Assembly: GCA_012960415.1 (NCBI GenBank)
Contig: DUBH01000012.1
Coordinates: forward strand, 5,324-38,841
DNA: 33,518 nucleotides
Direction: 5' to 3'
Source: Henriciella sp.
GTDB lineage: Bacteria > Pseudomonadota > Alphaproteobacteria > Caulobacterales > Hyphomonadaceae
The notes beneath the pieces were generated by a model. That model was given only the letters and a program-made list of their open reading frames with translations, was not told where the DNA came from and made no database searches. Position 1 is the first letter of the stretch; each line of letters opens with the position of its first letter. Shown in pieces: positions 10,626 through 27,933 of the stretch. The position numbers and the translations under genes were made by a program.

Positions 10626-10724
10626 CGCATATTCATCGTCAGGCTTGTTACCAAACAGGCTAACGACGAAAGCGCGGGATGCCTATTCGAGGTGTTCAAG
10701 GTTCGAACCCCGAATGTCGCGCCT

Positions 10725-10756: not shown

Positions 10757-11063
10757 CCGCTTGCAAATCAACGGCTTATATAGTTTAGTTTGGCGCGAGT
10801 GACGTGCCACATTCCATATTTTTTATCCATATTTTTCAATCACTTACGGGAGGTGTAATCGATTCTTGGTCCTCAGTTCGGTCTGATTTTGGTCCACAGT
10901 TTTGTAGACCGCTTGAGTTCGACGCCGCTCACCGGCACCGATAGCCATAGTTAACGCGGATTGTACTCCCTGCCAAATCAAGCTTGATCTATAGAACTAG
11001 ATTTCACCGCTAACTACAATGCACAGAGCGCCGAAACTCAACACATCATACTAAAGTCAACAC
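10757..11063. other. Intergenic stretch before the catabolic cluster
   Basis: About 300 AT-richer bases with no convincing open frame. It contains a 12-base palindrome ATCAAGCTTGAT (10977-10988) and several copies of TTTGGTCCA-like words near 10860-10910. No clear terminator for the minus-strand lipoprotein gene is visible. This is the left margin of the catabolic block. Confidence 0.4.
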
Positions 11064-12686
11064 CTAGCGCTCGACCGATATCCGCATCATGCCCAGCAAT
11101 CCTCCAAGAACGATATCGCCGCCCGGCAGGAGGTGAATGACAGAGTAAGCGCCATTGTAAATGTGGCTATCACCAAGGCGAAGCCGTGTAACGGCTTCAC
11201 CCGTCTCCCAATCAAGACCTGTGACCTCCCATTTTCCGTCTACGAAACCATTGACATAGACCTGTTGGGCGCCGCCAGAAATCATGGGGACGGTTGATGG
11301 GCTCGATACAGTGGGATTTGCCCAGGCACGCACCCAGCGGTCAGCTTCAACGTCCCATTCAAACTTTTCAGCACCCGTCGGTCCTTTGCGTAGTCTACCA
11401 GACATGACAACATTCTCCAGCATTGTTGGCAATGGCGATGGCAATGTGTTGTTTACCACCAAGGCACCGTAGCCATATACCGCAACGGATTGCTCAGACT
11501 GGGCGCGCTCAAGGTCAGACTTTCCGAAACTAACCTGAATCTGGTCGGCAATTCGACGCGATTTGGTCCCTGGCTTCTGGACGAAATCCTCTGGAATATC
11601 GTCGCGCCAGAAGGCGACGACATTCATAATCAACTCTCCGTCCGTGATGACAACAAGTTTGTCTTCCTCGTCTCCGAAGCCCATAAGTGAGGGCGTAGAG
11701 CCTGATCCGTTGCCGAGACTCACGCCGCCAAGTTTGCCGGTGAAGGAATCGTATTCTGATGACCACGCGCCATACCCTCTAGAGTGAAGTGTTTCCCCGT
11801 CCCAAACCAGTTTATGGAGCCTCCTATTTGAGAGAACATAAATGCCACCACCCTCATCAATGGCGATCGAGTTCGTAACCTGCTCATCGTCAGCCAACTC
11901 ATGAATGATCGGTGCCTGTTCAAAATTTCGGTCTACGATGACGACAACGCCGCCCATCGTCACCAGCGCCAGCATGCCATCATAAGTCAGATTCAATCCG
12001 AACACAGCATCAGGGTCTTCCAGTGTTGGATTGAAATATTCGCGCGGCAGCTGAAAGCGGCGCTTTTCCACCAGTGGTGACAGCGGATTGCCGGGTTCGG
12101 CATCACCATAAACGACGACATCGTTGTTGACGACAGTGTAGAAGTCACCATTGCGGTCGACGACATTATAGATTGCTGCTCTGGCGACGACCCGCTCAAC
12201 ATAACGTGGATAGTTCCGATTGAGATAGCCAAGCAGTTCAGCTTCTGAGGCCGTACTATCCATTTCGACGGCGATACGTTCAGCATCCTCGACAGACATG
12301 AAGGGTTGACCTTCCACAGGCAGAGCATTGATCAGTTGAAACTTGCCATCGCTAATCAGGATTTTGGAGATACGATTATTGTTGGCGGAGATGGCCACCT
12401 GCTCACCTGAAGGATAAGTTGGTAATTGCATAAGCGTGAGGTTCACCAACCCTGCCGGGACCCTTTGAATACCCTCATCATCAATCTCGTGAATACCGAC
12501 CGGCCCAGCAAACGGAAGGGAATCCTGTTGAGCCGGATTAAAATGCGTGGTGGCAAGCTCGCTGTCCACCAGATTTGGGTTCATTGGAGGAAACTCCGGA
12601 CCCGACGCATCAAAGACTGGGATAGTGGAGCATGCACCAAGCACGGCTACGATTGCGACTGCAGCAGCAGCGATATGAGGTTTCAT
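11064..12686 (-). CDS. Beta-propeller-like lipoprotein of unknown function
   Basis: A 540-residue exported lipoprotein. The N-terminus MKPHIAAAAVAIVAVLGACS is a signal peptide with lipobox LGAC (Cys19); Ser at +2 predicts the outer membrane. The mature part looks like a repeated beta-strand protein, probably a propeller, with blades such as GMLALVTMGGVVVIVDRNF, SIAIDEGGGIYVLSNRRLHKL and DKLVVITDGELIMNVVAFW. No haem motif or PQQ-binding Trp signature is seen, and the enzyme class is unknown. It follows the PQQ dehydrogenase gene by only 53 bases on the same strand, with GGGAG before its ATG, so the two are likely co-expressed and may cooperate in the periplasm, as a partner, sensor or lactonase-type hydrolase. 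Confidence 0.75.
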   Translation of the reverse strand: MKPHIAAAAVAIVAVLGACSTIPVFDASGPEFPPMNPNLVDSELATTHFNPAQQDSLPFAGPVGIHEIDDEGIQRVPAGLVNLTLMQLPTYPSGEQVAISANNNRISKILISDGKFQLINALPVEGQPFMSVEDAERIAVEMDSTASEAELLGYLNRNYPRYVERVVARAAIYNVVDRNGDFYTVVNNDVVVYGDAEPGNPLSPLVEKRRFQLPREYFNPTLEDPDAVFGLNLTYDGMLALVTMGGVVVIVDRNFEQAPIIHELADDEQVTNSIAIDEGGGIYVLSNRRLHKLVWDGETLHSRGYGAWSSEYDSFTGKLGGVSLGNGSGSTPSLMGFGDEEDKLVVITDGELIMNVVAFWRDDIPEDFVQKPGTKSRRIADQIQVSFGKSDLERAQSEQSVAVYGYGALVVNNTLPSPLPTMLENVVMSGRLRKGPTGAEKFEWDVEADRWVRAWANPTVSSPSTVPMISGGAQQVYVNGFVDGKWEVTGLDWETGEAVTRLRLGDSHIYNGAYSVIHLLPGGDIVLGGLLGMMRISVER

Positions 12687-12739
12687 TTGTTGTCTCCCAG
12701 AGTGACAGATTTGTACTGGTTTAGCGAATTGTCAGAATA

Positions 12740-14905
12740 CTATTCAGCTTGAGACGTCGACTGTTGCTCGTCTTGAAACGCCATCCAGGCTCGAGAGAGG
12801 ATGAAATCCTCAATATCATCGACTTCCTGTTGGCTTAGGCGGCCGGCGAAGTTGGGCATGCCAATCGCTTCGCCGGCCCCTTGAAGGAGGAAAGCATCAA
12901 AAGTGTCTATCCCGAGAGTCGCTGACTGCCTCAGATCGGGGAGCGTTCCGGACGAAATGGCCGCGCCGCCATGGCAGACACCGCAGAATCGACCGTAGAG
13001 GTCTGTGCCCCGTACAACCGCTTCAGCCGAATGCGGCTGTCGCGCTGGCTCAGGCGTTGCCTTCTGCGGAAGCGCGGCGACGTTTAGCTCGCCCTCTCCG
13101 CCAAGTTTGAAGGCAAGTACATGGCCTTCAACCGGGCCTCCTGTCTGCCCGACATAGAAGCCGGCGAGCAAATTGGCACCACTGCCCCAACCAGCTGATA
13201 CAGCAACATACTGCTCGCCATTGACCTCATACGCCACAGGTCCACCGACCATTGCGACACCAACCGGATACGACCACAGTTCTTCGCCTGTTTTGGCGTT
13301 GTAAGCATTGAAAACGCCGCTCGTCGTGCCTTGGAATACCAGATCTCCAGACGTTGTCAGCGTACCTCCATTCCACATTCGCTCATGCTGAACACGCCAG
13401 ACTTCTTTCTGAGCTACCGGATCCCAGGCAGCAAGATGTGCTTGGACAAGTTGGCGCAGAAGTGTGCGACGTGCTTCTTCTGTTTCCGGTAATGCGTCTG
13501 TCAGGCTGACACCGATATTGAATGCGTCTCGGTCAAAGCGGGCAATCTCGCCCTCGATCTGATCGGAATAGAGGAAAGGAACATCTTGTGCGGGAATATA
13601 TACCAGCCCTGTTTCCGGATTGAATGACATGGGGTGCCAGTTGTGGGCACCAAATGGGCTGGGTTTGACGAGCGCAGGTCCACCAGACAGATAGCGCGCC
13701 TCGGGGTTTTCAACAGGACGCCCGGTCTCCATATCGATATGTGTGGCCCAGTTAACGGGAACAAATGGCTCTGCGGAAATAAGTTCGCCGCTTATTCGGT
13801 CGATGACATAAAAGAAGCCGTTTTTCGGCGCTTGCATCAGCACCTTACGAAGCTCTCCCTCGATCTCAAGATCAGCTAGAATGATATTCTGCGTAGCTGT
13901 GTAGTCCCAAGTTTCGCCCGGCGTCGTCTGATAGTGCCAGACATATTCTCCTGTGTCTGGACGTAACGCGACGATTGATGACAGGAACAGATTGTCGCCG
14001 CCGTCCGGGCTTCGTACTTTCTGATTCCAGGGCGAGCCGTTTCCAACGCCGATATAGAGTAGGTCCAGTTCAGGATCGAATGCCATGCTGTCCCAGACAG
14101 TCCCGCCACCGCCCAGCTTCCACCATTCGCCTGTCCAGGTCTCAGCGGCCATCTCGATGGCTTCGTTTTCGAATCCATCATCCGGATTTCCCGGCACAGT
14201 GTAGAACTTCCAGGCCTGTTCACCTGTTTCAGCATCATACGCTGCAACAAATCCGCGAACGCCGAACTCACCACCGCCATTTCCGATGATGACCTTGCCT
14301 TTCACAATGCGAGGCGCCCCTGTGATCGTATAGGGTTCTTCGAGCGGTACAGTACGGGTCTCCCAGATCTGTTCGCCTGACTTTGAATCAAGAGCGATCA
14401 GACGACCATCCAGCGACCCGAATATGACCTTGTCGTTATAGACAGCCACGCCGCGATTGACGACATCGCAACAAGCATGTGCGCCCTTTGATCGGGGAAC
14501 CTCCGGATCGTAGCGCCAAAGAATTTCTCCTGTGGCAGCATTAAGCGCCAGCACTTCGCTCCACGAACCCGTAGTGTACATGACACCATCAACAATGATC
14601 GGGGTTGCCTCTACGCCACGATAGCTGCCAAGCGGTGCCGCCCAGGCAAGATCCAGCTGGTCGATTGTTTCCAGATTAATGGCGTCAAGCGCGCTAAACC
14701 GCGTTTCTGAAAACGTGCCACCATGAGTAAGCCAGTTATGTGGTTCGCCTGCAGCATTGAGCAAACGTTCCTCATTGATCCCCTGGGAGGCTTGTGTGGA
14801 AGCGTCGCCAGAGTCGACCGCCCCTCCACAGGCAGCCAGAAGACCGATCGTAGCACCCGTCAGAATGACTTTCAGCGCTGTGGCGGGCATTTTTTTGCCG
14901 TTCAT
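12740..14905 (-). CDS. PQQ-dependent quinohaemoprotein alcohol dehydrogenase, lipoprotein form
   Basis: A 721-residue type II quinohaemoprotein that oxidises alcohols in the periplasm, passing electrons from PQQ to its own haem c and on to the respiratory chain. The N-terminal propeller has VEATP (Glu99), the vicinal disulphide ACC (Cys145-146), GGGEFG (Glu213, Ca ligand), GNGSPWN (Asn289) and WDYT (catalytic Asp334). The residue two after the Asp is Thr, not Asp, pointing to calcium rather than lanthanide. The C-terminal cytochrome has CGVCH (641-645) and Met683 in GMPNF. Unusually, the export signal ends in a lipobox LAAC (Cys26) with Gly at +2, predicting outer-membrane anchoring. GGGAGG precedes the ATG. 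No pqq synthesis genes are in the window. Confidence 0.93.
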   Translation of the reverse strand: MNGKKMPATALKVILTGATIGLLAACGGAVDSGDASTQASQGINEERLLNAAGEPHNWLTHGGTFSETRFSALDAINLETIDQLDLAWAAPLGSYRGVEATPIIVDGVMYTTGSWSEVLALNAATGEILWRYDPEVPRSKGAHACCDVVNRGVAVYNDKVIFGSLDGRLIALDSKSGEQIWETRTVPLEEPYTITGAPRIVKGKVIIGNGGGEFGVRGFVAAYDAETGEQAWKFYTVPGNPDDGFENEAIEMAAETWTGEWWKLGGGGTVWDSMAFDPELDLLYIGVGNGSPWNQKVRSPDGGDNLFLSSIVALRPDTGEYVWHYQTTPGETWDYTATQNIILADLEIEGELRKVLMQAPKNGFFYVIDRISGELISAEPFVPVNWATHIDMETGRPVENPEARYLSGGPALVKPSPFGAHNWHPMSFNPETGLVYIPAQDVPFLYSDQIEGEIARFDRDAFNIGVSLTDALPETEEARRTLLRQLVQAHLAAWDPVAQKEVWRVQHERMWNGGTLTTSGDLVFQGTTSGVFNAYNAKTGEELWSYPVGVAMVGGPVAYEVNGEQYVAVSAGWGSGANLLAGFYVGQTGGPVEGHVLAFKLGGEGELNVAALPQKATPEPARQPHSAEAVVRGTDLYGRFCGVCHGGAAISSGTLPDLRQSATLGIDTFDAFLLQGAGEAIGMPNFAGRLSQQEVDDIEDFILSRAWMAFQDEQQSTSQAE

Positions 14906-15063
14906 TTTGTCCTCCCGGACACCCCAGTGGATGAGGTTCTGGATTTTTTCTCATACCAAGCAAGATTGCACTGGAACGGCGAAGTTTCTCAAGCCCCGCG
15001 CAACGCCAATGTTCCGTCATTTTGTGCCAGCGACAAAGCCTGGGACACCTACTTGCAACGGAT

Positions 15064-16170
15064 CTAGTTGCGGGTTTTCAACTCCTTGAGCAGCTCTTGC
15101 TGGTGCTGACCATGCTCAGGTGCTGGACCGGGGATTGCCTGCACGTTCGATTGGAAACGCGGGGCCGGAACAGCCTGAACATAACCCTGGCTGTTTTCAA
15201 AGATTCCGCGCGCCAGATTATGAGGGTGCAAAGGTGCACTGATCGGACTTTCCACAAGGCCAAAGCATGCATCGGTCCCCTCTAGTAAGTCTTGCCAGTA
15301 TGCAGATGGTTCGGTTGCGAAAAGAGCACGAAACTTCTCTGACTGCTTCGACCAGCTATCACGATCATACTGGTCTTCGAAGTCGGGATCGCCTGCAAGA
15401 CCGAGGCGCTGTAGAAGTTCTGCGTAAAATTTCGGTTCTAGCGCGCCAAGCGTGATGTCACGCCCGTCTGCACAGCGATAGGAACTGTACCAAGGGGAAT
15501 CATCCAGAAAGCCGCGCCCGCGCTCGGCTTGCATCATGCCGCTGGGCAGCAAATCGAAGATGAGGTTCATCATATGCGCCGACCCATCGACAATCGCTGC
15601 ATCAATCACATCGCCCTCACCGGTGGCCCTGGCCTTTAGAATGCCCGCGAGAATGCCAATCGTCAGATAGTTCGCACCGCCGCCAATGTCCCCGATCAAG
15701 CCTGGTGGCGGCAGTGATCGCGTTCCAGTTGGGCTTGCAAACCAGGCAGCTGAACTGACGGATACATAATTGATATCATGTCCAGCCGCCTGGGCGAGCG
15801 GTCCCGCCTGCCCCCAGCCCGTCATGCGACCAAAGACAAGCTGTGGGTTCCGCCCCAGACAAACTTCCGGACCAAGGCCCAGGCGTTCCATCACTCCCGG
15901 CCGCATGCCCTCGATCAGGGCGTCCGCCGTCGCAATCAGATCCAGCGCGACCGCGCGGTCTTCAGAGTCTTTCAGGTCCAGAGCGATCGAGCGCTTGCCT
16001 CTTTTCAGAATGCCGACAGGCAAAGTCGATCCCGGATCGGAGCCCTTGGTCTTTCGCTCTATGAGAACGACATCCGCGCCCAGATCGGCCAGATGCATGC
16101 CACAAAAGGGCGCCGGCCCAATGCCCTCGATTTCGACAATCCGAATGCCCTGCAGAGGTCCTTTAGACAC
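15064..16170 (-). CDS. CaiB/BaiF family protein, alpha-methylacyl-CoA racemase-like
   Basis: A 368-residue class III CoA-transferase-family protein most like alpha-methylacyl-CoA racemase, which interconverts (R)- and (S)-2-methylacyl-CoA so that beta-oxidation can proceed. The N-terminus IRIVEIEGIGPAPFCGMHLADLGADV is typical. H131 (AAGHDINYV) and D161 (GLIGDIGGG) are 30 residues apart, exactly as His126 and Asp156 of the mycobacterial racemase; true transferases instead carry an Asp nucleophile near residue 169. The start is GTG at 16170, six bases after the acyl-CoA dehydrogenase stop, so the two belong to one operon. A CoA transferase cannot be excluded by eye, but the His/Asp pair argues for racemase. 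Confidence 0.85.
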   Translation of the reverse strand: MSKGPLQGIRIVEIEGIGPAPFCGMHLADLGADVVLIERKTKGSDPGSTLPVGILKRGKRSIALDLKDSEDRAVALDLIATADALIEGMRPGVMERLGLGPEVCLGRNPQLVFGRMTGWGQAGPLAQAAGHDINYVSVSSAAWFASPTGTRSLPPPGLIGDIGGGANYLTIGILAGILKARATGEGDVIDAAIVDGSAHMMNLIFDLLPSGMMQAERGRGFLDDSPWYSSYRCADGRDITLGALEPKFYAELLQRLGLAGDPDFEDQYDRDSWSKQSEKFRALFATEPSAYWQDLLEGTDACFGLVESPISAPLHPHNLARGIFENSQGYVQAVPAPRFQSNVQAIPGPAPEHGQHQQELLKELKTRN

Positions 16171-16176
16171 GGGACG

Positions 16177-17334
16177 TCACCTGAACGCCGAGACGCCCGT
16201 CAGGCTCCGCCCGATAAGGAGTTTCTGGATCTCCGTCGTTCCATCCGGAATGGGTGCGATCATCGCTTCGCGGGCGAGGCGCTCGACAATGAACTCCTTC
16301 GTGACGCCATTACCGCCGTGAATCTGTACTGCCTGGCGCGTTGCACTGACAGCGATTTCGGTACCGTACCATTTTGCCATTGCGCACTCCTTGTCGCAGC
16401 GCTGTCCGGCGTCAATCATGCCCGCTGCGCGCAAAGACAACAGGCGCGCTGCATCGATCTCTGTGGCCATTACAGCTAACTTTTCTGCAATGAGCTGGTG
16501 GCCGGCAATTGGTTTGCCATGCTGCGAACGGTCGATTGCATATTTTATTGACTCATCAAGCGCGCGCCGCGCCATGCCATAGCCCCACGACCCGACGTGA
16601 ACTCGCGCGCGTTCGAACAGGGTGAGCGTGTTCTTCAGACCCGAGCCTATTTCACCGATAGTATTCTCGACCGGAACGCGCACATCATCGAGAAAAACCT
16701 GTGATGTTGATTGTCGATTGAGCGCGATCTTTGGAATACCGCGGACTTCATAAGGATGCTCATTGCGATCGAGCAGGATATGGGTCAGTTCGTTCTCGCC
16801 AGTTCGGCAGGTGCAGATGAAAAAATCTGAGTACTCACCATTGGTGATCCATGTTTTCTCACCAGAAATCACCCAATGGTCACCATCTCGCACAGCCCTG
16901 GTTTTCGCCGCCGCGACATCCGAACCGACATCCGGCTCGGAAATGCCGACAGACGCAAAAAGTTCCCCCGCCAACAATCTAGGCAGGTAACGTGTCTTGA
17001 TGTGCTCCGGCGCGAGTTTGACCAGCATCGACGCTGCGCTGCCATTAACAAGTGCGGCTATCGCCAAGTCTCCCGAACTATAGGCAAGCTCTTCAATTAG
17101 TTGAACGTGCAGCTTCCAGGACAACCCCAGCCCGCCGGCAGATTCCGGCTGTGGGGCGTTGACGAGACCAAATTCTGCCAGCTTTTGCGTCCAGCTTTGC
17201 ATTTTGTCCTTTGGAACGAAGTCTTCCCCATGCGCAGCCAGTTCCGGCTCCAGCTGCTCATCAAGATAGCGACGCAGGCTTTCGATTGCGGCGAGCTCAG
17301 CCTTGTCAAAGAAAATATCTAATCCCCCAATCAT
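16177..17334 (-). CDS. Acyl-CoA dehydrogenase
   Basis: A 385-residue FAD enzyme that introduces the 2,3 double bond into an acyl-CoA, passing electrons to electron-transfer flavoprotein. It has the ACAD signature ASVGISEPDVGSD, WITNGEYSDFFI, RQAVQIHGGNGVTKEF and the closing IPDGTTEIQKLLIGRSL. At the position of the usual catalytic Glu of medium-chain enzymes (the residue before GT) this protein has Asp364, a conservative change shared by some branched-chain or cyclic-substrate relatives. Its ATG overlaps the thiolase stop by four bases (ATGA), indicating translational coupling, and the racemase gene follows by six bases. Substrate is probably a methyl-branched acyl-CoA given the neighbour; this is inference. 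Confidence 0.92.
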   Translation of the reverse strand: MIGGLDIFFDKAELAAIESLRRYLDEQLEPELAAHGEDFVPKDKMQSWTQKLAEFGLVNAPQPESAGGLGLSWKLHVQLIEELAYSSGDLAIAALVNGSAASMLVKLAPEHIKTRYLPRLLAGELFASVGISEPDVGSDVAAAKTRAVRDGDHWVISGEKTWITNGEYSDFFICTCRTGENELTHILLDRNEHPYEVRGIPKIALNRQSTSQVFLDDVRVPVENTIGEIGSGLKNTLTLFERARVHVGSWGYGMARRALDESIKYAIDRSQHGKPIAGHQLIAEKLAVMATEIDAARLLSLRAAGMIDAGQRCDKECAMAKWYGTEIAVSATRQAVQIHGGNGVTKEFIVERLAREAMIAPIPDGTTEIQKLLIGRSLTGVSAFR

Positions 17335-18587
17335 GCATTTGCCCTCTTGAAAATGTTGACCACAGCAACACCCTCCTCAATGCCAATTAGGCCGCCGCTG
17401 TTTTCGTGGATAGCGTGTCGGGCACCATCAACCTGGCGCTTTCCAGCTTCGCCGCGTAATTGGGTGACAAGCTCATGAATTTGCCCCAGCCCGGTTGCGC
17501 CGATGGGGTGGCCTTTGGACTCCAGCCCGCCAGACGGATTGATCGGGATTGAGCCGCCAATCGTGAAGTCCCCGCGTTCCGCTGCCGGGCCTGCTTCACC
17601 GATCGGAACTAACATCAAGTTCTCGGCGTGCATCAACTCACCAATCGCGGTTGCATCGTGCACCTCGGCAACGTCCATGTCTTCTGGTGAAAGGCAGGCC
17701 ATTTCATACGCCCTCTCAGCGGCAATTCGCGCAACATGGCGTTCCGGTGCATCGGCGCTGCGCGCGGGGTTTCCACTTGCAACGGCGCTGGCCATGACCT
17801 GGACGGCTCGTGACGTAGTGGCACCAATCTTCCTCAAGCCTTCCTCATTGCAAAGGATGACCGCTGCAGCACCATCCGAGATCGGTGAGCACATTGGCAG
17901 CGTCAAAGGGTAAGTGATGGGAGGTGCTGAAAGAATTTCATCAATCGTGTAAGGCTGACGGTATTGCGAATACTCATTATGCTCTGAATGCTGATGATTT
18001 TTCGCGGCTATCGCAGCAATCTGGCGCTGAGTCGTGCCATAGCGCTTCATATGGTTCCGGCCGAACGCTGCGTAGATTTTCATGAATACGCTATAAGGGC
18101 GTTCAGATTCCGATCCCTCCGGTTCGGCAACACCTTCGCCCAACTGGAGAAGCCTTTTGGCATTCTCCTCAGGTGTCTCAACATCCCAACCGCCATCGAA
18201 CACAGCGAACATCCTCGCCTTGTCAGGCACGTTCATTTTCTCGACACCCGCCGCCAGGACAACGTCCTGCATACCAGCCTTAAGCGCCTGAACAGCAAGG
18301 TGAAAGGAGGATGAACTGGACGCACAGGCGTTTTCAATATTGAATGCGGGAATACCTGTCAGCCCGATCTTGCTGAGCGCAACCTGGCCAGGAACAAAGG
18401 TTTGTCCCTGCAAGAACCCTTGGGTCGCACTGGAATGGTAAACTGCCTCCACGGCGGCCTTGGTGCAGCCTGCATCATCCGCCGCACGCAAAATGGCGGT
18501 GTCCAGCAATTCAGAAATACTTGCTTCCAGATGCCGCCCGAAATGCGTCATGCCGACGCCTACAATATAAATCTTACTATCCGACAA
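17331..18587 (-). CDS. Thiolase, SCP2/lipid-transfer-protein type
   Basis: A 418-residue thiolase-fold enzyme of the SCP2-thiolase group, which cleaves 3-oxoacyl-CoA, often with branched or sterol-like chains, in the last step of a beta-oxidation turn. Cys88 in NACASSSSS is the nucleophile, His310 in EVHDAT and His360 in ESKGHPIGATG complete the site; the presence of Cys88 speaks against the aldolase-type Ltp2 relatives. The start is TTG at 18587 with GGGGAGAG upstream. The stop overlaps the acyl-CoA dehydrogenase ATG by four bases. Thirty bases upstream lies the crotonase gene, same strand. Confidence 0.92.
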   Translation of the reverse strand: MSDSKIYIVGVGMTHFGRHLEASISELLDTAILRAADDAGCTKAAVEAVYHSSATQGFLQGQTFVPGQVALSKIGLTGIPAFNIENACASSSSSFHLAVQALKAGMQDVVLAAGVEKMNVPDKARMFAVFDGGWDVETPEENAKRLLQLGEGVAEPEGSESERPYSVFMKIYAAFGRNHMKRYGTTQRQIAAIAAKNHQHSEHNEYSQYRQPYTIDEILSAPPITYPLTLPMCSPISDGAAAVILCNEEGLRKIGATTSRAVQVMASAVASGNPARSADAPERHVARIAAERAYEMACLSPEDMDVAEVHDATAIGELMHAENLMLVPIGEAGPAAERGDFTIGGSIPINPSGGLESKGHPIGATGLGQIHELVTQLRGEAGKRQVDGARHAIHENSGGLIGIEEGVAVVNIFKRANA

Positions 18588-18614
18588 GACTCTCTCCCCA
18601 TCTACAGATGGCCG

Positions 18615-19421: not shown

Positions 19422-19569
19422 TGGGCCGCGTTCGCTCCAAAACTTGGCCCGTTCCAGATGAGGCTTCACTTTATCGGGCCAGAAAACTTATTGAACATCA
19501 GACGCATGTCACCGTGCGCCAAAGCGTCGTCAGTCGAGCCGCCCAAGGCAATGCAGAGCTCTAGCGATG

Positions 19570-20667
19570 TCAGCTATCGTCCAGCTGGCGCTCATTCTCG
19601 AGGAATTCCTGCGGGGACTGCCCCGTTAACCGGCGAAACGCACGGGAGAAATTGCTGGGGTCCTTGTATCCCAACAGATACGATATCTCCTTGATGGACC
19701 GACGACCTGTCCGCAAATAGCCGATAGCGAGATGCTGGCGAACATCGTCGAGCACGGTGTTGAAGGTTGTGCCCTCATCCTGTAATTGGCGCTGAAGACT
19801 TCGGTTACTTGTATTTAGCTCTCTTGAAACCGACTCCAGGGAGACAGCTCCATCCGGTAGCATTTCGACAATCGCCGCCCGGATCCGCGGAATAATTTGT
19901 TGTTCATCGAACCGGGCAATGTATTCCATCGCAATCTGGTCATTCCTTCGAACAATGTCGGAATTCGCGCCGCGCAGCACGCGCGTATAGTCCTTCTCGG
20001 CCACATGCAGCTCTAGACTGTCGTGACCATATTCGATCGGACAACAGAAAAAGGCATCAAATTCATCCATCGCGACCTTACCAGGTTTCGGACGACGCAT
20101 TCTTACCAAAACAGGAGAATAGTCCGCTCGGTAAACCATTCTGACGAAGCGAAGCACCGTCGCCAAAAAAACATCCTGGCGGACCGGCGGCACGTCTTCC
20201 TTGAGTTCAATGGAATGAATGAGGCACCCCTTCCTGATTTCAGACCTTGTCTCAGCAGAATGAGAAATTAGCCTGAAAAAACGATCAAACCGGTGGAAGA
20301 ATGTTTCCAGCGTTCGGCTTGAGAACAATGAATACCCAAGCGCATGCATTGAGCCGGGCGTATTTCGCTCGGCCAGCTTCAGCCCGATCGTCTCATCACC
20401 TGTCGCCTCTACGATGAGCTCAATGAAGCGACTGAATCGTCTAGACCGCACCCTGGCATTCGGGTCCTGGAGAATATCAGGATCAACTTCCGCACGCCGC
20501 AGTAGATCTGGTACATCAATGGAAAAGTCAAATTCGTCCAATATGGCCACAATCTGTATGAGCCAGGATGCAATGACTGACCGCGTCTCACTCAATTCTG
20601 GTTGCGCCTTACCTGATGATGTGTGGTTCAAATATCGATTGTCCTGTACGACCGTCTTCGATGACAA
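19570..20667 (-). CDS. AraC family transcriptional regulator
   Basis: A regulator of up to 365 residues with the OruR-type architecture: an N-terminal arabinose-binding-like domain (about residues 35-230, with ETIGLKLAERNTPGSMHALGY) and a C-terminal double helix-turn-helix (about 265-360, with SNRSLQRQLQDEGTTF, IKEISYLLGYKDPSNFSRAF and GQSPQEF). Such proteins usually activate degradation genes when the substrate or an intermediate binds. No ATG exists near the start; TTG at 20667 opens the frame, with further TTG codons 12 and 24 codons later, so the true start is uncertain. It lies between the acyl-CoA ligase and crotonase genes on the same strand and is the obvious candidate controller of the cluster. 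Confidence 0.9.
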   Translation of the reverse strand: MSSKTVVQDNRYLNHTSSGKAQPELSETRSVIASWLIQIVAILDEFDFSIDVPDLLRRAEVDPDILQDPNARVRSRRFSRFIELIVEATGDETIGLKLAERNTPGSMHALGYSLFSSRTLETFFHRFDRFFRLISHSAETRSEIRKGCLIHSIELKEDVPPVRQDVFLATVLRFVRMVYRADYSPVLVRMRRPKPGKVAMDEFDAFFCCPIEYGHDSLELHVAEKDYTRVLRGANSDIVRRNDQIAMEYIARFDEQQIIPRIRAAIVEMLPDGAVSLESVSRELNTSNRSLQRQLQDEGTTFNTVLDDVRQHLAIGYLRTGRRSIKEISYLLGYKDPSNFSRAFRRLTGQSPQEFLENERQLDDS

Positions 20668-20720
20668 GCTTTATCGGTTCATGACGGTTTGTCCAATTTT
20701 TGAACAGGATTGTACACGCT

Positions 20721-22391
20721 TCAGCCAATACTGCGGACCTGGCCGCCCCAGTATTTCTTACGTACATCCTTTCGCAACACCTTACCAACGACGCTCAGAG
20801 GCAGTTCCTCCACGAACAACACGGATTTTGGTGTTTTGAAAGATCCGATCTGCTCTTTTACATAGGCAATCAGGTCAGATTCGGCCACCTCAACAGAGTC
20901 GTTAAGGATGACTTCCGCATGTACAGCCTCGCCCCATTCTTCGTGGGGAACACCGACAACCGCTGACATCAAAACACCAGGATGGGAGTTGACTGCGGCC
21001 TCAACCTCAGTCGCATAGACATTGAAACCACCCGTGATGATCATGTCCTTCTTCCGATCAACCAGGTAGCAATATCCGTTTTCGTCCGTATATCCGATAT
21101 CCCCTGACTTCCAGTATCCGTTGACGAATTCCTCCTTCGTCTTCTCTGGATTGCCTTCATAGCCAAGACAGGTTGAGCGCGATCGCAAATAGAACTCGCC
21201 GAGTTCGCCTACAGGAACTGGATTACCATCATCATCGCAAACCGACAGTTCGATCCCGGTTGAGCGTCGACCCGCGGACGCGAGTCGGCCTTCAGTCTCA
21301 GCGTCCACGATATGATCTTTCTTGCTTAGGCAGAGGGTTGCCGCCAGATGTTCCGTGGAGCCGTACACTTGTGTGAATATTGAACCGAATCGCTCAACCA
21401 GGAGCTTGGCCTTGGCCGGGCTCATGGGGGCCGCGCCATACAACACCGTGCGCAATGAGGATAGGTCATACTCTCGTGCTTCGGGCATTTCCAAAAGGCG
21501 GTACGCCAGAGTCGGTACGATGAAGGCGTGAGAAATCTTCTCTTGCTGGATATAGCGGCACCAGTTCTCCAGACTGGGCTCGTTCATTGTTACCGTGCAA
21601 CCACCGCTGAACAGAACCGGCAAAAGCATCATACCGCTGCCATGGCTAATGGGAGCTATATGCAGCATGCGGCAGCCATCGAAGAAATCCGGGTCTGGAA
21701 GTGTCAGGAAACTATCGCGGCACCCCAGAATGTTGTCGATTGAATACTTCGCGCACTTGCTGTCACCAGTCGTGCCTCCTGTAAAGCGCATGAGCACGAC
21801 GTGCGTTCGATCATCGATTTCAATATCTGTGTTCTCTGTCGACGCGTTCGCCAAAAGATCGGGAAGGGCCAACACGCCTGAATATGGCTTGACCAGAGCA
21901 TCCATCACAACAATCTGAATGCCGCGTTCGGTAAGCGGGCCAGCATGGGAGGCTAGGAGGTCATTCTCGATGAATGCGACTTTGGGCTTGACGATGTCGA
22001 TCTGGCCAAGATGCGTTTCCAGGCTGTCGAGGTAGTTGGCATGACAACATGTTGCATAAGCTTTTGCAGCTGACCCCCAATGGAACAGGGAGAGATTGTC
22101 ATTTTGCAGCATACAGACATATCGGTCGCCCGCGCCGAGATTCAGGTTTCCATTGAGAATATGTGCAATCTGATTGGTTATGATGTGATAGTCACGAAAA
22201 CTCAGCCGGCGGCCACGCTCAAGATTCACAATCGCCTCACGATCTCCGAAGGATTCCGCGAGCCCTTGCATGACACGGCTGTAATTTACCCGCCCGCCTT
22301 CTGTCGAAACCAATGCTGCAGCAGAACTTGGAGCGACGTCAACAGGCATCAGTTCACGGTCATTGCGCTTTTTTGAGAAAATTCCGAACAC
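20721..22391 (-). CDS. AMP-dependent acyl-CoA synthetase/ligase
   Basis: A 556-residue ANL-superfamily enzyme that activates a carboxylic acid with ATP and CoA. The A3 phosphate loop reads FTGGTTGDSKCAK, with Ser and Cys where most have Pro and Gly; later motifs are standard: VYGSTEH, GYWKSGDIGYTDENGY, DRKKDMIITGGFNVYATEVE and the closing LPLSVVGKVLRKDV with the catalytic Lys. The start is GTG at 22391 preceded by GGGAGG. It lies downstream of the aldehyde dehydrogenase gene and would take the acid made by it to the CoA level, feeding the beta-oxidation genes to its left. Chain specificity cannot be read from sequence. Confidence 0.92.
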   Translation of the reverse strand: MFGIFSKKRNDRELMPVDVAPSSAAALVSTEGGRVNYSRVMQGLAESFGDREAIVNLERGRRLSFRDYHIITNQIAHILNGNLNLGAGDRYVCMLQNDNLSLFHWGSAAKAYATCCHANYLDSLETHLGQIDIVKPKVAFIENDLLASHAGPLTERGIQIVVMDALVKPYSGVLALPDLLANASTENTDIEIDDRTHVVLMRFTGGTTGDSKCAKYSIDNILGCRDSFLTLPDPDFFDGCRMLHIAPISHGSGMMLLPVLFSGGCTVTMNEPSLENWCRYIQQEKISHAFIVPTLAYRLLEMPEAREYDLSSLRTVLYGAAPMSPAKAKLLVERFGSIFTQVYGSTEHLAATLCLSKKDHIVDAETEGRLASAGRRSTGIELSVCDDDGNPVPVGELGEFYLRSRSTCLGYEGNPEKTKEEFVNGYWKSGDIGYTDENGYCYLVDRKKDMIITGGFNVYATEVEAAVNSHPGVLMSAVVGVPHEEWGEAVHAEVILNDSVEVAESDLIAYVKEQIGSFKTPKSVLFVEELPLSVVGKVLRKDVRKKYWGGQVRSIG

Positions 22392-22448
22392 AGAGACTGT
22401 CCTCCCTTTTGTCTACACCACCCTAAGATTGCTGCGTACAGGATCGAT

Positions 22449-23873
22449 TTAAAGCAGCTTTTTAAATAGATTCAGCAACCAGCCCGTCTTCGAAGAATAG
22501 GGAGGCAGCAATTGGCTAAGCACACTGATCTTCGATTGTGAGAACACCGGCTTCAAATGACTGAACCGCTCGAAACTTCCCGGCCCCAAATAGGATCCGA
22601 TCCCGCTTTGCCCGATGCCGCCAAATGGAAGACGGCGCTGGAAGACGTGCATCACCGTGCCGTTCAGGGTCACGCCGCCAGCATGGGTTTCGCCAAGGAT
22701 TTTTCGTCGACCTGCACTGTCTTTACCGAAATAGTAAAGTGCCAGTGGCCGCTCGCCAGCATTGATGTACTCGATTACTTCGTCTTCCGTACGATAGGTC
22801 AGGATCGGCAGAATCGGCCCGAAAATCTCTTCCTGCATCAGCCCCATATCGCTTGCAACATTGGTCACAGCCAGCGGGGCTATTCGATGAGCAGCCTCGA
22901 ACATGCCATCGCCACTGCCTGCGAGATTGGTCACTCCGGCACCTTTTGCGCGGGCGTCTTCAACCAGTCCCCGCAAACGGTCAAACTGCCGGTGATTTAT
23001 AATGCTTGTATAGTCCTGATTGGCTTCGATCTCGCCAAAACACTTGTGCACCTGCCTGGCGAGCGCTGACACAAAGTCTTCTACACTCCCTTCTGGAACG
23101 AATGCGTAGTCGACACCGATGCACGTTTGTCCTGCGTTGAGGAGCTTGCCGAAAACAAGGCTCTGCGCGACTTCTGGAAAATGAGCACTTTTATCAATGA
23201 TAATGGGGCACTTGCCGCCAAGCTCAAGCGTCACTGGTGTCAAATTGGCTGCGGCCGACTGGGCGACTTTTTTACCTGTATTGGGCGAACCGGTGAAGAG
23301 AATATGATCGAATGGAAGAGACGTCATCTGCTGCGCGACATCCGGGCCGCCGATTACCACTGCCATCTCTTCTTCTGAAAAATACTTGCGAACAAGACGC
23401 TGCGAAATTTCAGCTGAATGAGCCGAAATTTCACTTGGCTTGGCAATAATCCGGTTGCCAGCCGCCAACGCACCCGCCGCACCGGCGAATACTGTGCCAT
23501 AGGGATAGTTCCAGGTTCCGAGAATGCCGACGACACCAAGGGGTTGCGGAATTAGCCGCGAAGATCCCGGCAATCCAAACGTGTCAGTTTTGACACTGCG
23601 CGGCTTCATCCAGTGTTTTAAATGGCGCCGTGCAAATTTCACATCCGACAGAACCAGCATGATGTCTGTCAGGATGGTTTCATACCGGCTGCGTATTCCG
23701 AAATCAGCCGTAACCGCGTTAATGAGTTCGTCTTCATGCGTCTCGAACATTTTCCCAAGACGAGCCAGCAGGTCCATCCGGGTTTCATAGCTGCAGGACA
23801 CCTGCTCTCGCGTGAGGGAACGCTGCAGGGTGAATATCCTCTCAAGCTCGGTGATGCCGGTTTCAATCCCCAC
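22449..23873 (-). CDS. Aldehyde dehydrogenase, coniferyl aldehyde dehydrogenase-like (class 3)
   Basis: A 474-residue NAD(P)-dependent aldehyde dehydrogenase of the class 3 / coniferyl aldehyde dehydrogenase branch, oxidising an aldehyde to its acid. Catalytic residues are intact: Asn122 (GTWNYP), Glu217 (LELGGK) and Cys251 (AGQTCIG). The C-terminus has the family end QLLPPYSSKTGWLLNLFKKLL (partly shown: LLPPY), which in class 3 enzymes can contact membranes. The GTG start shares one base with the stop codon of the SDR gene, indicating coupling. Coniferyl aldehyde itself is not implied; the context suggests it handles the aldehyde from the PQQ alcohol dehydrogenase, though that enzyme acts in a different compartment, so the aldehyde must cross the membrane. 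Confidence 0.9.
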   Translation of the reverse strand: MGIETGITELERIFTLQRSLTREQVSCSYETRMDLLARLGKMFETHEDELINAVTADFGIRSRYETILTDIMLVLSDVKFARRHLKHWMKPRSVKTDTFGLPGSSRLIPQPLGVVGILGTWNYPYGTVFAGAAGALAAGNRIIAKPSEISAHSAEISQRLVRKYFSEEEMAVVIGGPDVAQQMTSLPFDHILFTGSPNTGKKVAQSAAANLTPVTLELGGKCPIIIDKSAHFPEVAQSLVFGKLLNAGQTCIGVDYAFVPEGSVEDFVSALARQVHKCFGEIEANQDYTSIINHRQFDRLRGLVEDARAKGAGVTNLAGSGDGMFEAAHRIAPLAVTNVASDMGLMQEEIFGPILPILTYRTEDEVIEYINAGERPLALYYFGKDSAGRRKILGETHAGGVTLNGTVMHVFQRRLPFGGIGQSGIGSYLGPGSFERFSHLKPVFSQSKISVLSQLLPPYSSKTGWLLNLFKKLL

Positions 23874-24646
23874 TATCTCGCCCTCAAACGTGTTGCCGCA
23901 TCGAGGCGAATTGTTTCACCATTCAAGTATCCATTCTCGACGATGAACTGGCATGCGTGTGCAAATTCCATGGGGTCTCCGGCGCGGCGTGGCGCCTCGA
24001 CAGTGTCGACCAGTGAAACGACCACCTTCTCACCCAGACTCTTCACCATCTGTGTCAAAAACAGCCCCGGTGCGATCGCGTTGACACGGACGCCGACGGC
24101 TCCGAGTTCCCGCGCCGCCGGCATGTTCATACCGATCACACCCGCCTTGGACGCTGAATAGCCGGCCTGACCTATTTGCCCTTCATAGGCGGCACCGGAT
24201 GACACATTGATAACGACTCCCCGCTCGCCCAGATCGTCTGGTGCGTTCCTCGCCATGACGGCGACGCATTTACTCATGACGTTGAACGTGCCGACGAGGT
24301 TGACCATGATCACCTTGGTGAACTTGTCGAGCTGACAAGGGTTGCCGTCCCGGTCGAGAATTTTGGTCGGTGCCGGAATGCCTGCCGCGTTGACAGCAAT
24401 CTGAATGGCCCCGAATTTCTCGACGGTATTTGTCACCGCATCCGCAACCGATTGATCATCGGTCACATCGACCTTGAAGAACTGGCAGACCTTGTTTCCA
24501 AGTTCGCCACAGAGCGCGTTTCCTGCGACTTCGCTCAGATCGAAGAGCGCGACGCGTGCGCCCTGCTCAACAAAACTGCGCGCCGCAGCAGCGCCTAGTC
24601 CAGAGGCACCACCTGTAACCACAGCGACTTTTCCATCGAGTTTCAT
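23873..24646 (-). CDS. SDR oxidoreductase, HSD10-like 3-hydroxyacyl-CoA dehydrogenase
   Basis: A 257-residue classical short-chain dehydrogenase. It has TGGASGLG (11-18) for the cofactor, Asp36 at the end of strand 2 favouring NAD, NAAG (87-89 region) and the catalytic Ser150, Tyr163 and Lys167 (YSASK). The closest functional group by eye is type II 3-hydroxyacyl-CoA dehydrogenase (HSD10), which oxidises 2-methyl-3-hydroxyacyl-CoA and steroid alcohols; the insert DRDGNPCQLDKFTKVIMVNL is characteristic. AGGAG precedes the ATG. The gene overlaps the aldehyde dehydrogenase GTG by one base and follows the TonB receptor gene. It fits as the third step of beta-oxidation in this cluster. Confidence 0.9.
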   Translation of the reverse strand: MKLDGKVAVVTGGASGLGAAAARSFVEQGARVALFDLSEVAGNALCGELGNKVCQFFKVDVTDDQSVADAVTNTVEKFGAIQIAVNAAGIPAPTKILDRDGNPCQLDKFTKVIMVNLVGTFNVMSKCVAVMARNAPDDLGERGVVINVSSGAAYEGQIGQAGYSASKAGVIGMNMPAARELGAVGVRVNAIAPGLFLTQMVKSLGEKVVVSLVDTVEAPRRAGDPMEFAHACQFIVENGYLNGETIRLDAATRLRAR

Positions 24647-24697
24647 GTTCGCAAGCTCCTGACCTGCTATTGTCAGCTTTCAACTGCTCAAGTCTGG

Positions 24698-24729
24698 AGC
24701 AGCCTCCCTTCGATGGAAAGGAGGCTGCT
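24698..24729. terminator. 10-bp stem-loop between TonB receptor and SDR genes
   Basis: AGCAGCCTCC (24698-24707) pairs perfectly with GGAGGCTGCT (24720-24729). It lies 10 bases past the receptor stop on the minus strand. No T tract follows, so it may stabilise or process the receptor message or weaken read-through into the downstream genes rather than fully terminate. Confidence 0.5.
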
Positions 24730-24738
24730 ACAAGACGA

Positions 24739-27201
24739 TCAGAAATTTATACGGCCTTCGGCACCAATCACGCGCGGCTCTTCGATCCAGCCAACATACA
24801 CGCCCGGGCTGAGTGGCGCGTCGACCGAGGCGGTATAGGTGGCTTCATCGGTTAGGTTGCGACCGAATACACGGAATTCGTAGCGGCCAAACTCCACCCC
24901 GACATGAGCATCGAATTTCGTATATCCTTCCTGAAACGCGTTCGGGTCGAGGTCGCCATCCAGGAACATCTCGTCCTTGAAGTTGGCTCCAATCCGGGCA
25001 TTCAGATCGAAATTCTCGAAACTGCGATTGAAGGCGAGATAGACGTTACCACTGAACTCGGGCGCAAAGGCCCCGCGTTCGCCGGCAAGGTCCTTGGTAC
25101 CCACACCTGCAGAATCCGGGCATGTGCCCAAGCCCGTTTCGATCACTGAACACCCTGCCCCTGGGAAGGACTGGAATTCGTGATCGAGATAGGCGAACGC
25201 ACCGCCAATCTCGATTTCGTCGCTGAGAAGGAACTGGCCATCAAGTTCCAGCCCCTGCACTTGAAGTTCAGCCGCGTTCCCAACCACGAAGCTTGTCCCA
25301 CTCCACGAGGTTACCTGCAGGTCTTCTAACTCGCTTCGGAAAATGATTGCCCCGATGCGAGCACGGTCACCCATGAACTGGTGCTTGATACCAGCTTCCC
25401 AAGCCGTGACTTTCTCATCCTCAAATTCATGACCCGGACGCGGGCTCCCATCCGGTTCCGCCGTGTCAGGACTGAAATTGTAACCACCAGATTTATAGCC
25501 AGTGGAATAGGAAATATAGGCCGACCCGTTGTCAGCATACTGCCAGCGCAGTTTTACAGATGGATCAAGATGATCTTCTGTTCGCGTATCGTTGAGGTCA
25601 GCAGCAAAGCGGTTGAGCAATGCGGCAAAAGTCGTTGCAGAGTTCAATCCATCTGCACCCCCAACAGTAGCGGCGGCGGTTAGATATTCGGTTAGATCGG
25701 CAGACCCGATCGTGTCTGCGGGTGTGACAAGGCCAACGAAGTCTCGGGGTGTGCCGGCTCCAACAACAACACTCTTATCGATGCTCTTCTCATCTTCGGA
25801 GTAACGCAAACCTAGTTCAAGTGTGACGCTGTCGGTCAGGTCAATGCCAAGCTCGCCAAAAAGCGCAATCGTTTCGGCTTGTTGATCGAAGAAAGTGCGT
25901 TGAGCAACGTTAACAATACCGCCGGGCAAAATCGATGTTGGCAAAACGCCAAATGTGCCATTGAACGCCGTTGTCTCTTCAATATAAGCATCCTGGTTTT
26001 CATAATACAGCCCGCCCAAGAAATTTATGCGCCCATCCCAGTCTGTGGCAATGCGAAGTTCCTGGCTAAACATGTCCAGTTCTTCTTCATCAAGATTGTT
26101 AATGAAGCTGACAGGCAGAAAATCCACATCGTGATGTTGAGCGAAATCGAAAGAGGAGTAGCCAGTAATCGAAGTGAGGGTAAAGTTATCGAACTCCCAT
26201 TCTGCCTTCACAGATCCGCTCAATGATTCAGTTGTCTCCGTGTCGGAGATTGGAGGGTCGCCGACACGGAATGCGGGATTGCCGTTGAAGCTGACATAAG
26301 CGGTATCTCCAGTAGAAACTCCAAAGTCTGGATGAAGCATTTGTGAGAGCGCTATCGTGCTAGGCGTCGGCAGGCGATCATCAATCGCATTAATGGTAAG
26401 CTCCTTACCGACCCCGTCCATTTCAAGATAGCTCAGTTTCGTCTCAACGTTTAAACTCTCCGTTGGTTGCCAGGCGAGCGTCGCCCGGGCGAACATGTCT
26501 TCGCGCTCGGCTTCGTCGCGATCAAAGACACGGTTCTCAACATATCCGTCAGTCGTCGTATAACGAATTGCCAACCGGCCTGCCAAATTATCCGCCAAGC
26601 CCGCGGAAAAGACGCCCGAGTAGCTTTGCGTATTGAATTCTGGTTCCCAGGCGACACCGACCCAACCATTGAGTTCTTCCCCGACTTCTGGCGAGGCCGT
26701 TTCAAGCTTGATCGCGCCAGCAACCGTGTTCTTACCGAATAGAACGCCCTGGGGCCCACGCAGAACCTCGACTTGCTGCAGGTCGAACTGGGACTGTGAG
26801 AATTGGCGGCTGCGCGGCTGATAAACGCCATCCACATAAAGGCCAACCGATTGCTCGAACCCCTTGTTGATTCCGGATCCGACACCTCGGATAAAGATGT
26901 TCGAGGTTTGCGCTCCCCGACCGACCTGCAGGCCCGGCACGCGCGCGGAAATCTGCTCAAGGTTCGTGACCCCTTGCGCTTCCAGCTCTGCTCCGGAAAC
27001 GGCGGTCACGGCCACTGGAGCATTGATCAGCGTCTCGTCCCGTTTACGTGCCGTAACAGTCACTGTTGTCAGTCTTGCTTCCCGCTCCGCTTCTGTTTCG
27101 GCAGGGACATCTGCCACTTGCCCATAGGCTGGCGCGGCAAGGGCAATGGCGATCGGCAAAATTGCTGCGCCGCTTAAATTGAATCTAAACTTCTGGTTCA
27201 T
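24739..27201 (-). CDS. TonB-dependent outer membrane receptor
   Basis: An 820-residue TonB-dependent receptor that imports a substrate across the outer membrane using the proton-motive force. A signal peptide ends near residue 27 (PAYG before QVAD). A TonB box-like TTVTVTARKRDE lies at 45-56, followed by the plug domain (VPGLQVGRG, IFIRGVGSG, VDGVYQPRS, VEVLRGPQGVLFGKN) and a 22-stranded barrel ending in Phe, as expected for outer-membrane assembly. GGGAGG precedes the ATG. It is the first gene of the catabolic series and no siderophore genes are present, so uptake of the carbon substrate is more likely than iron. It resembles sphingomonad and Hyphomonas receptors tied to degradation operons. 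A CATAAT (27276-27281, minus strand) could be a -10 needing an activator. Confidence 0.93.
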   Translation of the reverse strand: MNQKFRFNLSGAAILPIAIALAAPAYGQVADVPAETEAEREARLTTVTVTARKRDETLINAPVAVTAVSGAELEAQGVTNLEQISARVPGLQVGRGAQTSNIFIRGVGSGINKGFEQSVGLYVDGVYQPRSRQFSQSQFDLQQVEVLRGPQGVLFGKNTVAGAIKLETASPEVGEELNGWVGVAWEPEFNTQSYSGVFSAGLADNLAGRLAIRYTTTDGYVENRVFDRDEAEREDMFARATLAWQPTESLNVETKLSYLEMDGVGKELTINAIDDRLPTPSTIALSQMLHPDFGVSTGDTAYVSFNGNPAFRVGDPPISDTETTESLSGSVKAEWEFDNFTLTSITGYSSFDFAQHHDVDFLPVSFINNLDEEELDMFSQELRIATDWDGRINFLGGLYYENQDAYIEETTAFNGTFGVLPTSILPGGIVNVAQRTFFDQQAETIALFGELGIDLTDSVTLELGLRYSEDEKSIDKSVVVGAGTPRDFVGLVTPADTIGSADLTEYLTAAATVGGADGLNSATTFAALLNRFAADLNDTRTEDHLDPSVKLRWQYADNGSAYISYSTGYKSGGYNFSPDTAEPDGSPRPGHEFEDEKVTAWEAGIKHQFMGDRARIGAIIFRSELEDLQVTSWSGTSFVVGNAAELQVQGLELDGQFLLSDEIEIGGAFAYLDHEFQSFPGAGCSVIETGLGTCPDSAGVGTKDLAGERGAFAPEFSGNVYLAFNRSFENFDLNARIGANFKDEMFLDGDLDPNAFQEGYTKFDAHVGVEFGRYEFRVFGRNLTDEATYTASVDAPLSPGVYVGWIEEPRVIGAEGRINF

Positions 27202-27531
27202 ATTTATCCTCCCAAGAGCCCTTTTGTTCTCCGTGTTTCCGTTCCACGCTATGATGCATAAGGACGCGAAAGTAGATTATGAAATCTGGTGAAAGATCGC
27301 TCTGTTAGAGTCATACCAGTTCACGCCAACAGATCGTCATTCCGCGATACGAGAGAGCCTTAACGGTTAAAAATAGGGGAGACTATCCTTGTACTTACCG
27401 ATGAACAATCGGAGTCTGGGACAGTCTAGGCGGAACCAAGGCAAGGCTGGGACTGTTGCAGTCACTGATACCGGCCAGGCCAATACCTGTCGATAAACGA
27501 CCGGTATGAGCATCTTTCTCTTAGCCTAACA
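27202..27531. promoter_or_regulatory. Regulatory spacer between CopG gene and TonB receptor
   Basis: About 330 bases without a gene, forming the junction of transfer module and catabolic cluster. CTGGGACAGT (27416-27425) and CTGGGACTGT (27447-27456) are direct repeats starting 31 bases apart, three helical turns, as AraC-type half sites often are. ATACCGG (27468-27474) and CCGGTAT (27501-27507) form a loose inverted repeat. No good -35/-10 pair is seen for the receptor. Assignment as an AraC operator is inference. Confidence 0.35.
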
Positions 27532-27930: not shown

Positions 27931-27933
27931 CGC

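Follow-up and report, generated by a model that had tools for sequence, protein, structure and literature searches.

We describe here a catabolic gene block in a 33,518-nt stretch of Henriciella sp. contig DUBH01000012.1 (hereafter, the window). The block probably represents a self-contained operon for the degradation of a primary alcohol branched next to its CH2OH group (2-methyl or 2-ethyl type), disseminated through the Hyphomonadaceae on integrative conjugative elements. As the original prediction had it, eleven tightly spaced genes lie on the minus strand between positions 11064 and 27201; all 11 open reading frames (ORFs) were present upon checking of the coordinates, and the gaps separating them, counted from the TonB receptor end, are 92, -1, 57, 53, 100, 27, -4, 6, 158 and 53 bp. 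The gene block was thereby recovered as described, but the true unit proved longer (10791-27362) and corresponds to a mobile module.

Gene content and the route it would encode

The gene set, its order and the protein families were read directly from the DNA. Assignment of families with Pfam and NCBIfam (the TonB receptor was scanned with Pfam only) bore out the earlier calls of a TonB receptor, an aldehyde dehydrogenase, an acyl-CoA ligase, a crotonase and an AraC regulator. The proposed pyrroloquinoline quinone (PQQ)-dependent alcohol dehydrogenase scored 665.5 bits against TIGR03075, far above the cut-off of 480.05, could be aligned from end to end with 1kv9, a type II quinohaemoprotein (777.5 bits), and carried a C-terminal haem c domain (Cytochrome_CBB3, 32.8 for a cut-off of 27). 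With its propeller above the curated cut-off and a haem c domain, the enzyme is predicted to be a type II quinohaemoprotein. Its N-terminus reads LLAAC, which we take to be lipobox-like, such that the cassette is predicted to encode two lipoproteins, this dehydrogenase and the 540-aa protein, and not the latter as its only one. The racemase-type enzyme found its top matches in the Protein Data Bank (PDB) among AMACR/MCR proteins (284 bits), as anticipated; its GHDINY and GDxGGG motifs align and the His and Asp residues, presumed catalytic by reference to MCR of M. tuberculosis, are unchanged. The seven top distinct solved sequences matched by the short-chain dehydrogenase/reductase (SDR) were all of the HSD10 type (230.6-235.3 bits), which places it, in agreement with the initial call, nearest to HSD10 among solved SDRs.

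The 540-aa protein yielded no useful match in Pfam, NCBIfam or PDB sequence searches, and a significant match between it and YncE was not found. Its AlphaFold model (pLDDT 80.9) is a beta-propeller; of the 50 listed PDB matches, which included BamB, YxaL and tetrathionate hydrolase, none exceeded a query TM-score of 0.52, so that no function could be assigned to the protein. Relatives occur at 72% in L154, a Sphingomonadaceae metagenome-assembled genome (MAG), and at 57% on pBAR2, whereas no common pathway was seen around eleven further order-level relatives (36-39%) and a few weaker ones. Relatives at 34.7% were also observed on Bacteroidales plasmids and in one uncultured record (8.9-100 kb).

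From these families we infer the catalytic steps, the regulation and the substrate class of the following route. The substrate would cross the outer membrane, perhaps through the TonB receptor, and be oxidized to the aldehyde in the periplasm by the membrane-tethered PQQ-haem dehydrogenase, with electrons passing to the respiratory chain. Aldehyde dehydrogenase and ligase would then yield a 2-alkyl-acyl-CoA, both isomers of which the racemase-type enzyme would convert to the form accepted by the acyl-CoA dehydrogenase; the latter, the hydratase, the HSD10-like dehydrogenase and the thiolase would finally release propionyl-CoA (from a methyl branch) or a longer acyl-CoA. The AraC regulator would switch the operon, and the host, not being a PQQ maker, would take this cofactor from outside. 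The same logic of acyl-CoA dehydrogenase, hydratase, HSD10-type dehydrogenase and thiolase acting on alpha-methyl acyl-CoA operates in the beta-oxidation of isoleucine-derived 2-methylbutyryl-CoA, from which the cassette differs by its SCP2-like thiolase, racemase, periplasmic alcohol dehydrogenase and mobile carrier.

Relatives of the pathway and candidate substrates

A synteny search, suggested earlier as a check on the cluster, identified an independent version in L154, in which the genes for AraC, hydratase, thiolase, acyl-CoA dehydrogenase, racemase, PQQ enzyme and lipoprotein follow one another in the order found in the window, with the aldehyde dehydrogenase gene located after these seven rather than upstream. 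The eight products share 63-76% identity with those of the window, with nonsynonymous differences (pN) of 0.16-0.24 and synonymous differences (pS) of 0.74-0.80, the synonymous sites being saturated. The L154 contig starts just before the AraC gene, and SDR, ligase and TonB receptor genes are not on this contig. Since an independent copy retains seven genes in order with pN far below pS, the cluster is more than a chance association.

To survey more distant versions, the loci of the best 80 of 515 thiolase relatives were scanned, six of which proved to be copies of the block itself. A core consisting of hydratase, thiolase, acyl-CoA dehydrogenase and SDR (at least 35% identity, same strand, within 7 kb) was present in 27 of the 74 non-copy loci. 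By the same rule, 18 of these 27 had the ligase and ten the racemase; an aldehyde dehydrogenase was found anywhere in the locus in 12, a GMC alcohol dehydrogenase in 12, and both in ten. A Colwellia MAG, for instance, displays the row AraC, hydratase, thiolase, acyl-CoA dehydrogenase, SDR, racemase, ligase, aldehyde dehydrogenase and GMC enzyme. GMC versions also occur on plasmid pYT40 (Porphyrobacter), in Phaeobacter sp. G2 and in Sulfitobacter alexandrii. Like the cassette, these three have an aldehyde dehydrogenase (71% identical to the cassette's in pYT40), thiolase, acyl-CoA dehydrogenase, SDR and a CaiB/racemase family member; the acyl-CoA dehydrogenases and thiolases of pYT40 and Phaeobacter G2 are 63-64% and 54-58% identical to those of the cassette, respectively. 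They differ from it in that a GMC flavin alcohol dehydrogenase replaces the PQQ-haem enzyme, the ligase is distant (28-31%), and uptake genes are for an ABC importer (of the branched-chain-amino-acid type, in Phaeobacter G2 and S. alexandrii) or another TonB receptor; no substrate is named in the consulted records. On pBAR2, a GMC oxidoreductase 70% identical to that of pYT40 sits beside the lipoprotein relative. Closer relatives of the ligase lie beside the core in B. pyrrocinia (49.8%) and beside a racemase in Cupriavidus KK10 (52%). The same core thus occurs with other alcohol dehydrogenases in other classes of Pseudomonadota, and the alcohol dehydrogenases appear to be interchangeable front ends of a single beta-oxidation core, which leads us to read the cassette as an alcohol pathway proceeding through an alpha-branched acyl-CoA. 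Two further loci were observed in this survey: L202, from another Hyphomonadaceae MAG, has an AraC, hydratase, thiolase, acyl-CoA dehydrogenase, SDR and ligase row (2720-14809) ~2.9 kb from a relaxase-like ORF, and L157 (9998-15316), from a Pseudomonadales MAG, has two P450 genes near a thiolase-acyl-CoA dehydrogenase pair 68-72% identical to that of the cassette.

Several observations weigh against this reading. Promoter and terminator searches at both ends of the block matched nothing, leaving a single transcript unproven. Forty-seven of the 74 non-copy loci fell below the core rule, many consisting of ligase and thiolase only, some of them being interrupted by contig ends; and no racemase lies near the core in 17 of the 27 loci possessing it, so that an alpha-branch is supported for part of the loci only. 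The closest solved relatives of the TonB receptor are pesticin and siderophore receptors. Two enzymes depart from their expected active sites. The thiolase, predicted to be of the SCP2 type, indeed has SCP2-thiolase type 1 as its best PDB match (231 bits) and keeps the nucleophilic Cys (ENACAS) and GHP, but HDCF, presumably the motif of SCP2-thiolases (present in 6hsj), is replaced by HDAT, such that the nearest structure stands and the HDCF cysteine does not. In the acyl-CoA dehydrogenase, the position of the Glu of the EGT motif, which we take to be the catalytic residue of MCAD-type active sites, is occupied by Asp364; Asp is found there in ten of 11 aligned sequences, window included, and Glu in one, whereas all three solved relatives in the alignment shown have Glu. 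Given these departures, neither enzyme should be named by family alone.

The route from alcohol to chain shortening claimed in the original prediction nonetheless stands as the best reading, with the core recurring beside other alcohol dehydrogenases in relatives; its substrate is a prediction. That account included neither the mobility of the block nor the apparent incapacity of its hosts to produce PQQ. Short 2-alkyl alcohols and longer isoprenoid alcohols are both candidates. A long isoprenoid alcohol of the pristanol type, shortened by successive passages through this core, is the less probable of the two options, at perhaps one chance in four: racemase, HSD10 and SCP2-thiolase act on 2-methyl acyl-CoAs in animals, uptake via a TonB receptor would be appropriate for a substrate of low solubility, relatives occur in Colwellia and Cycloclasticus, and P450 genes accompany the thiolase-acyl-CoA dehydrogenase pair of L157, yet the ABC importer of the two roseobacter relatives suits a small soluble acid, and no carboxylase for 3-methyl branches is among the 11 genes. 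Steroids and polyethylene glycol (PEG) fit less well. Racemases and SCP2-like thiolases are known in steroid catabolism and the ligase scores 201.8 bits with the steroid-24-oyl-CoA synthetase model, albeit far below the cut-off of 750; with a single-subunit acyl-CoA dehydrogenase in place of the paired type of steroid clusters and no ring-degrading enzyme among the 11 genes, degradation of a steroid or bile-acid side chain is improbable. We consider even more doubtful the polyether alternative raised at the outset, in which the block would be a polyethylene or polypropylene glycol cassette. The peg operon of Sphingopyxis comprises a GMC PEG dehydrogenase, a permease, a TonB receptor, an aldehyde dehydrogenase, a ligase and an AraC regulator. 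The last four gene types are common to both systems, but neither the GMC dehydrogenase nor the permease is among the 11 genes, and the cassette adds a full beta-oxidation set, of which the SDR, thiolase, hydratase and racemase would serve no obvious purpose in the shortening of ether chains and are left unexplained.

As for an individual compound, the chemistry of the plasticiser alcohol 2-ethylhexanol fits the branched-alcohol route on paper, but nothing links it to the cluster; the compound is discussed in PMC8269228 and PMC10134610, the consulted portions of which contain no beta-oxidation gene sequence that could be matched to the cluster. CYP153 has been reported in Hyphomonas and Henriciella MAGs in PMC10654063, the consulted part of which contains nothing on the cluster. 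At the level of titles and the opening lines of abstracts, nothing resembling the cluster was found in the literature.

The mobile module and its carrying elements

The distribution of the block was determined in 105 whole genomes of the family, including that of the window. Ten of them, from three genera of Hyphomonadaceae, are carriers: the 540-aa protein was found at 100% in all ten, with no match at E <= 0.001 in the other 95, and the TonB receptor at 99-100% in nine. Comparison of fetched regions revealed the full module in eight other genomes at 98.4-99.99% DNA identity and a partial copy (3.4 kb at a contig end) in G089. Over 16.57 kb, substitutions relative to the window numbered 1 in G046, 38 in G027, 49 in G054, 52 in G022, 54 in G062, 55 in G053, 56 in G070 and 261 in G036. 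In contrast, the rpoB region, found in eight of the ten carriers, was only 77.9-87.8% identical to that of the window's genome over the best aligned stretch; G046, with 80.4% in rpoB, yet has a single substitution in the module. In G036, 162 of the 261 substitutions fall within window positions 23000-24999 (the aldehyde dehydrogenase/SDR part), an excess that is likely a recombination patch from a diverged cassette. The six block copies among the thiolase relatives were from Hyphomonas sp. CY54-11-8, H. atlantica 22II1-22F38, Hyphomonas sp. NAT16, a Henriciella MAG, an uncultured Hyphomonadaceae MAG and an Aquisalinus MAG, the last one on a 13.8-kb contig and devoid of the lipoprotein gene.

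In G062, G070 and G053, the block starts at a tRNA-Asp repeat and a whole tRNA-Asp gene is found at the other end, 52,103 or 57,987 bp away. The G062 element spans 52,103 bp between 21-bp repeats (14 + 7). A gene for a DUF6538 protein adjoins its tRNA, and its other products include a DUF3363-containing relaxase, ParB, and TrbB-, TrbG- and TrbI-type proteins; the element of G070 encodes a protein with DUF6538 and a Phage_integrase match (27.1 bits, at the cut-off) and a TrbE-type protein. Having direct repeats, an integrase, a relaxase and type IV secretion genes, the tRNA-Asp element is predicted to be an integrative conjugative element of 52-58 kb with the module at one end. Its coupling-protein gene shares ~72% DNA identity with that of the window over 1.6 kb. 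In the genomes of the window, G027 and G046, the block lies inside another conjugative backbone, that of the window being 99.83% and 99.98% identical to those of G027 and G046, respectively, over 25.9 kb, with different DNA in the three genomes to the left of ~7646. The window's own backbone includes a coupling protein, a relaxase-like protein, TraF and the left edge, whereas an integrase and the right end were not found there. The att core TGGCGCGAGTGACG is intact in the module of nine of the ten carriers and altered in G022; in the window it represents a fossil end, as the intact tRNA-Asp of this genome is located elsewhere. The presence of the block in two different backbones indicates that it moved between them.

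Cross-contamination between assemblies could in principle generate near-identical copies, several carriers being MAGs. We regard this as extremely improbable: at least two backbones are involved, the outer flanks differ, and in three genomes, including one assembled as a single 3.8-Mb contig, the element terminates in tRNA-Asp. A discrete module thus appears to have spread nearly unchanged among marine Hyphomonadaceae on conjugative elements. A transposon was considered for the 16.6-kb module and rejected, as there is no transposase among the 11 genes and no terminal inverted repeat by eye, and the left end of the module is the tRNA-Asp att core.

Other features were observed on the carrying elements. 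To the left of the tRNA-Asp fossil (~10640-10790), there is a stretch resembling a tRNA 3' end with a T-run; ARAGORN detected no tRNA in it, and it may mark the end of a further element. A DUF6088/AbiEi-like regulator and AbiEii nucleotidyltransferase pair occupies window positions 8137-9770, and cargo elsewhere includes type I restriction genes (G062, G027), a GmrSD-type protein (G027), and RND and cation efflux genes (G070). Coordinates are given in Table 1.

Table 1 Features of the window, the module and its carrying element
Feature	Position	Strand	Basis or remark
Part of second conjugative backbone, including module	7646..33518		left edge ~7646, right edge beyond window
Mobile catabolic module	10791..27362		16,572 bp, sharp ends; 8 other full copies
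att core TGGCGCGAGTGACG, tRNA-Asp(GTC) 3' end on complement	10791..10804	+	fossil here; left end of module
Predicted lipoprotein, 540 aa, beta-propeller	11064..12686	-	outside all Pfam/NCBIfam families
Predicted type II quinohaemoprotein (PQQ + haem c) alcohol dehydrogenase, predicted lipoprotein	12740..14905	-	TIGR03075
Alpha-methylacyl-CoA racemase-type enzyme (CoA_transf_3)	15064..16170	-	best PDB matches AMACR/MCR
Acyl-CoA dehydrogenase, Asp364 at catalytic-Glu position	16177..17334	-	library families and alignment
Thiolase nearest SCP2-thiolase type 1, HDAT for HDCF	17331..18587	-	families and PDB match
Enoyl-CoA hydratase/isomerase family (crotonase)	18615..19469	-	PF00378
AraC-family regulator	19570..20667	-	PF12625 (Arabinose_bd), PF12833 (HTH_18)
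Acyl-CoA ligase (AMP-binding)	20721..22391	-	PF00501
Aldehyde dehydrogenase	22449..23873	-	PF00171
HSD10-like 3-hydroxyacyl-CoA dehydrogenase (SDR)	23873..24646	-	best PDB matches type II HADH
TonB-dependent outer-membrane receptor	24739..27201	-	Pfam
Conjugative coupling protein (VirD4/TraG) of carrying element	27934..29898	-	PF02534
Relaxase-like protein (DUF3363) of carrying element	30003..31943	-	PF11843; MobA/VirD2 Relaxase below cut-off
TraF-type signal peptidase of carrying element	32177..32707	-	PF10502

PQQ supply in the carriers and in the family

A PQQ alcohol dehydrogenase scored over cut-off in 97 of the 105 family genomes, and PqqE did so in none of them. Weak PqqE matches in 81 genomes (best 70 bits, for a cut-off of 381) were also seen in the named controls and are read as other radical-SAM proteins. 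In a control set of 17 genomes, a Pseudomonas (with two copies) and a Cupriavidus exceeded the PqqE cut-off (532-615 bits); none of the others did, these being the ten carriers and five further genomes, those of L154 and L150 among them. PqqC had no match in the 105 genomes, a search in which no control matched either; its positive control comes from a separate search of 14 genomes, two of which, the same Pseudomonas and Cupriavidus, were over cut-off. With PQQ enzymes occurring family-wide and no recognisable PqqE or PqqC, the hosts must take PQQ from outside, barring a synthesis route that the models miss, and PQQ scavenging is apparently a trait of the Hyphomonadaceae as a whole.

According to the part of PMC12124388 consulted, E. 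coli imports PQQ via the TonB-dependent receptor PqqU, whose signature consists of Y/F/W99, R304 and R365 and was counted in one alphaproteobacterial case. The cassette resembles this system in that its PQQ-dependent enzyme operates in a host apparently devoid of PQQ synthesis, and differs from it in being a mobile catabolic operon of Alphaproteobacteria and in its receptor, which shares 24% identity with E. coli PqqU and carries K113, H356 and I407 in place of Y99, R304 and R365 (the alignment is reliable for the plug position only, the barrel positions being aligned at low identity). E. coli PqqU matched proteins in all 105 genomes, as would be expected of related TonB receptors, the eleven top-scoring ones (24-27%) all being in non-carriers. 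It is conceivable, though unlikely, that the TonB receptor, together with the propeller lipoprotein, serves to capture or retain PQQ for use by the dehydrogenase and not to handle the carbon substrate. The PqqU precedent and the failure to find a recognisable PqqC or PqqE in the hosts speak for this possibility; the replaced signature residues speak against it, as does pBAR2, where the lipoprotein relative neighbours a GMC enzyme and no PQQ enzyme is annotated in the 23 kb fetched.

By extension, and just as speculatively, Hyphomonadaceae might run PQQ-dependent alcohol oxidation on their neighbours' PQQ by means of an importer other than PqqU, with the branched-alcohol operon carrying its own. 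Were this the case, a complete cofactor-scavenging alcohol pathway, with the receptor as importer and the lipoprotein as PQQ or redox partner, would move in one conjugation. A family endowed with PQQ enzymes and lacking recognisable synthesis in any event runs counter to the suggestion, made in the consulted part of PMC12124388, that Alphaproteobacteria are primarily PQQ producers and not scavengers. The module, finally, testifies to gene flow between genera, its copies being separated by 1 to 56 substitutions per 16.6 kb, and in one case by 261. It also connects a well-delimited mobile unit with testable chemistry in carriers that include Hyphomonas sp. CY54-11-8 and H. atlantica 22II1-22F38.

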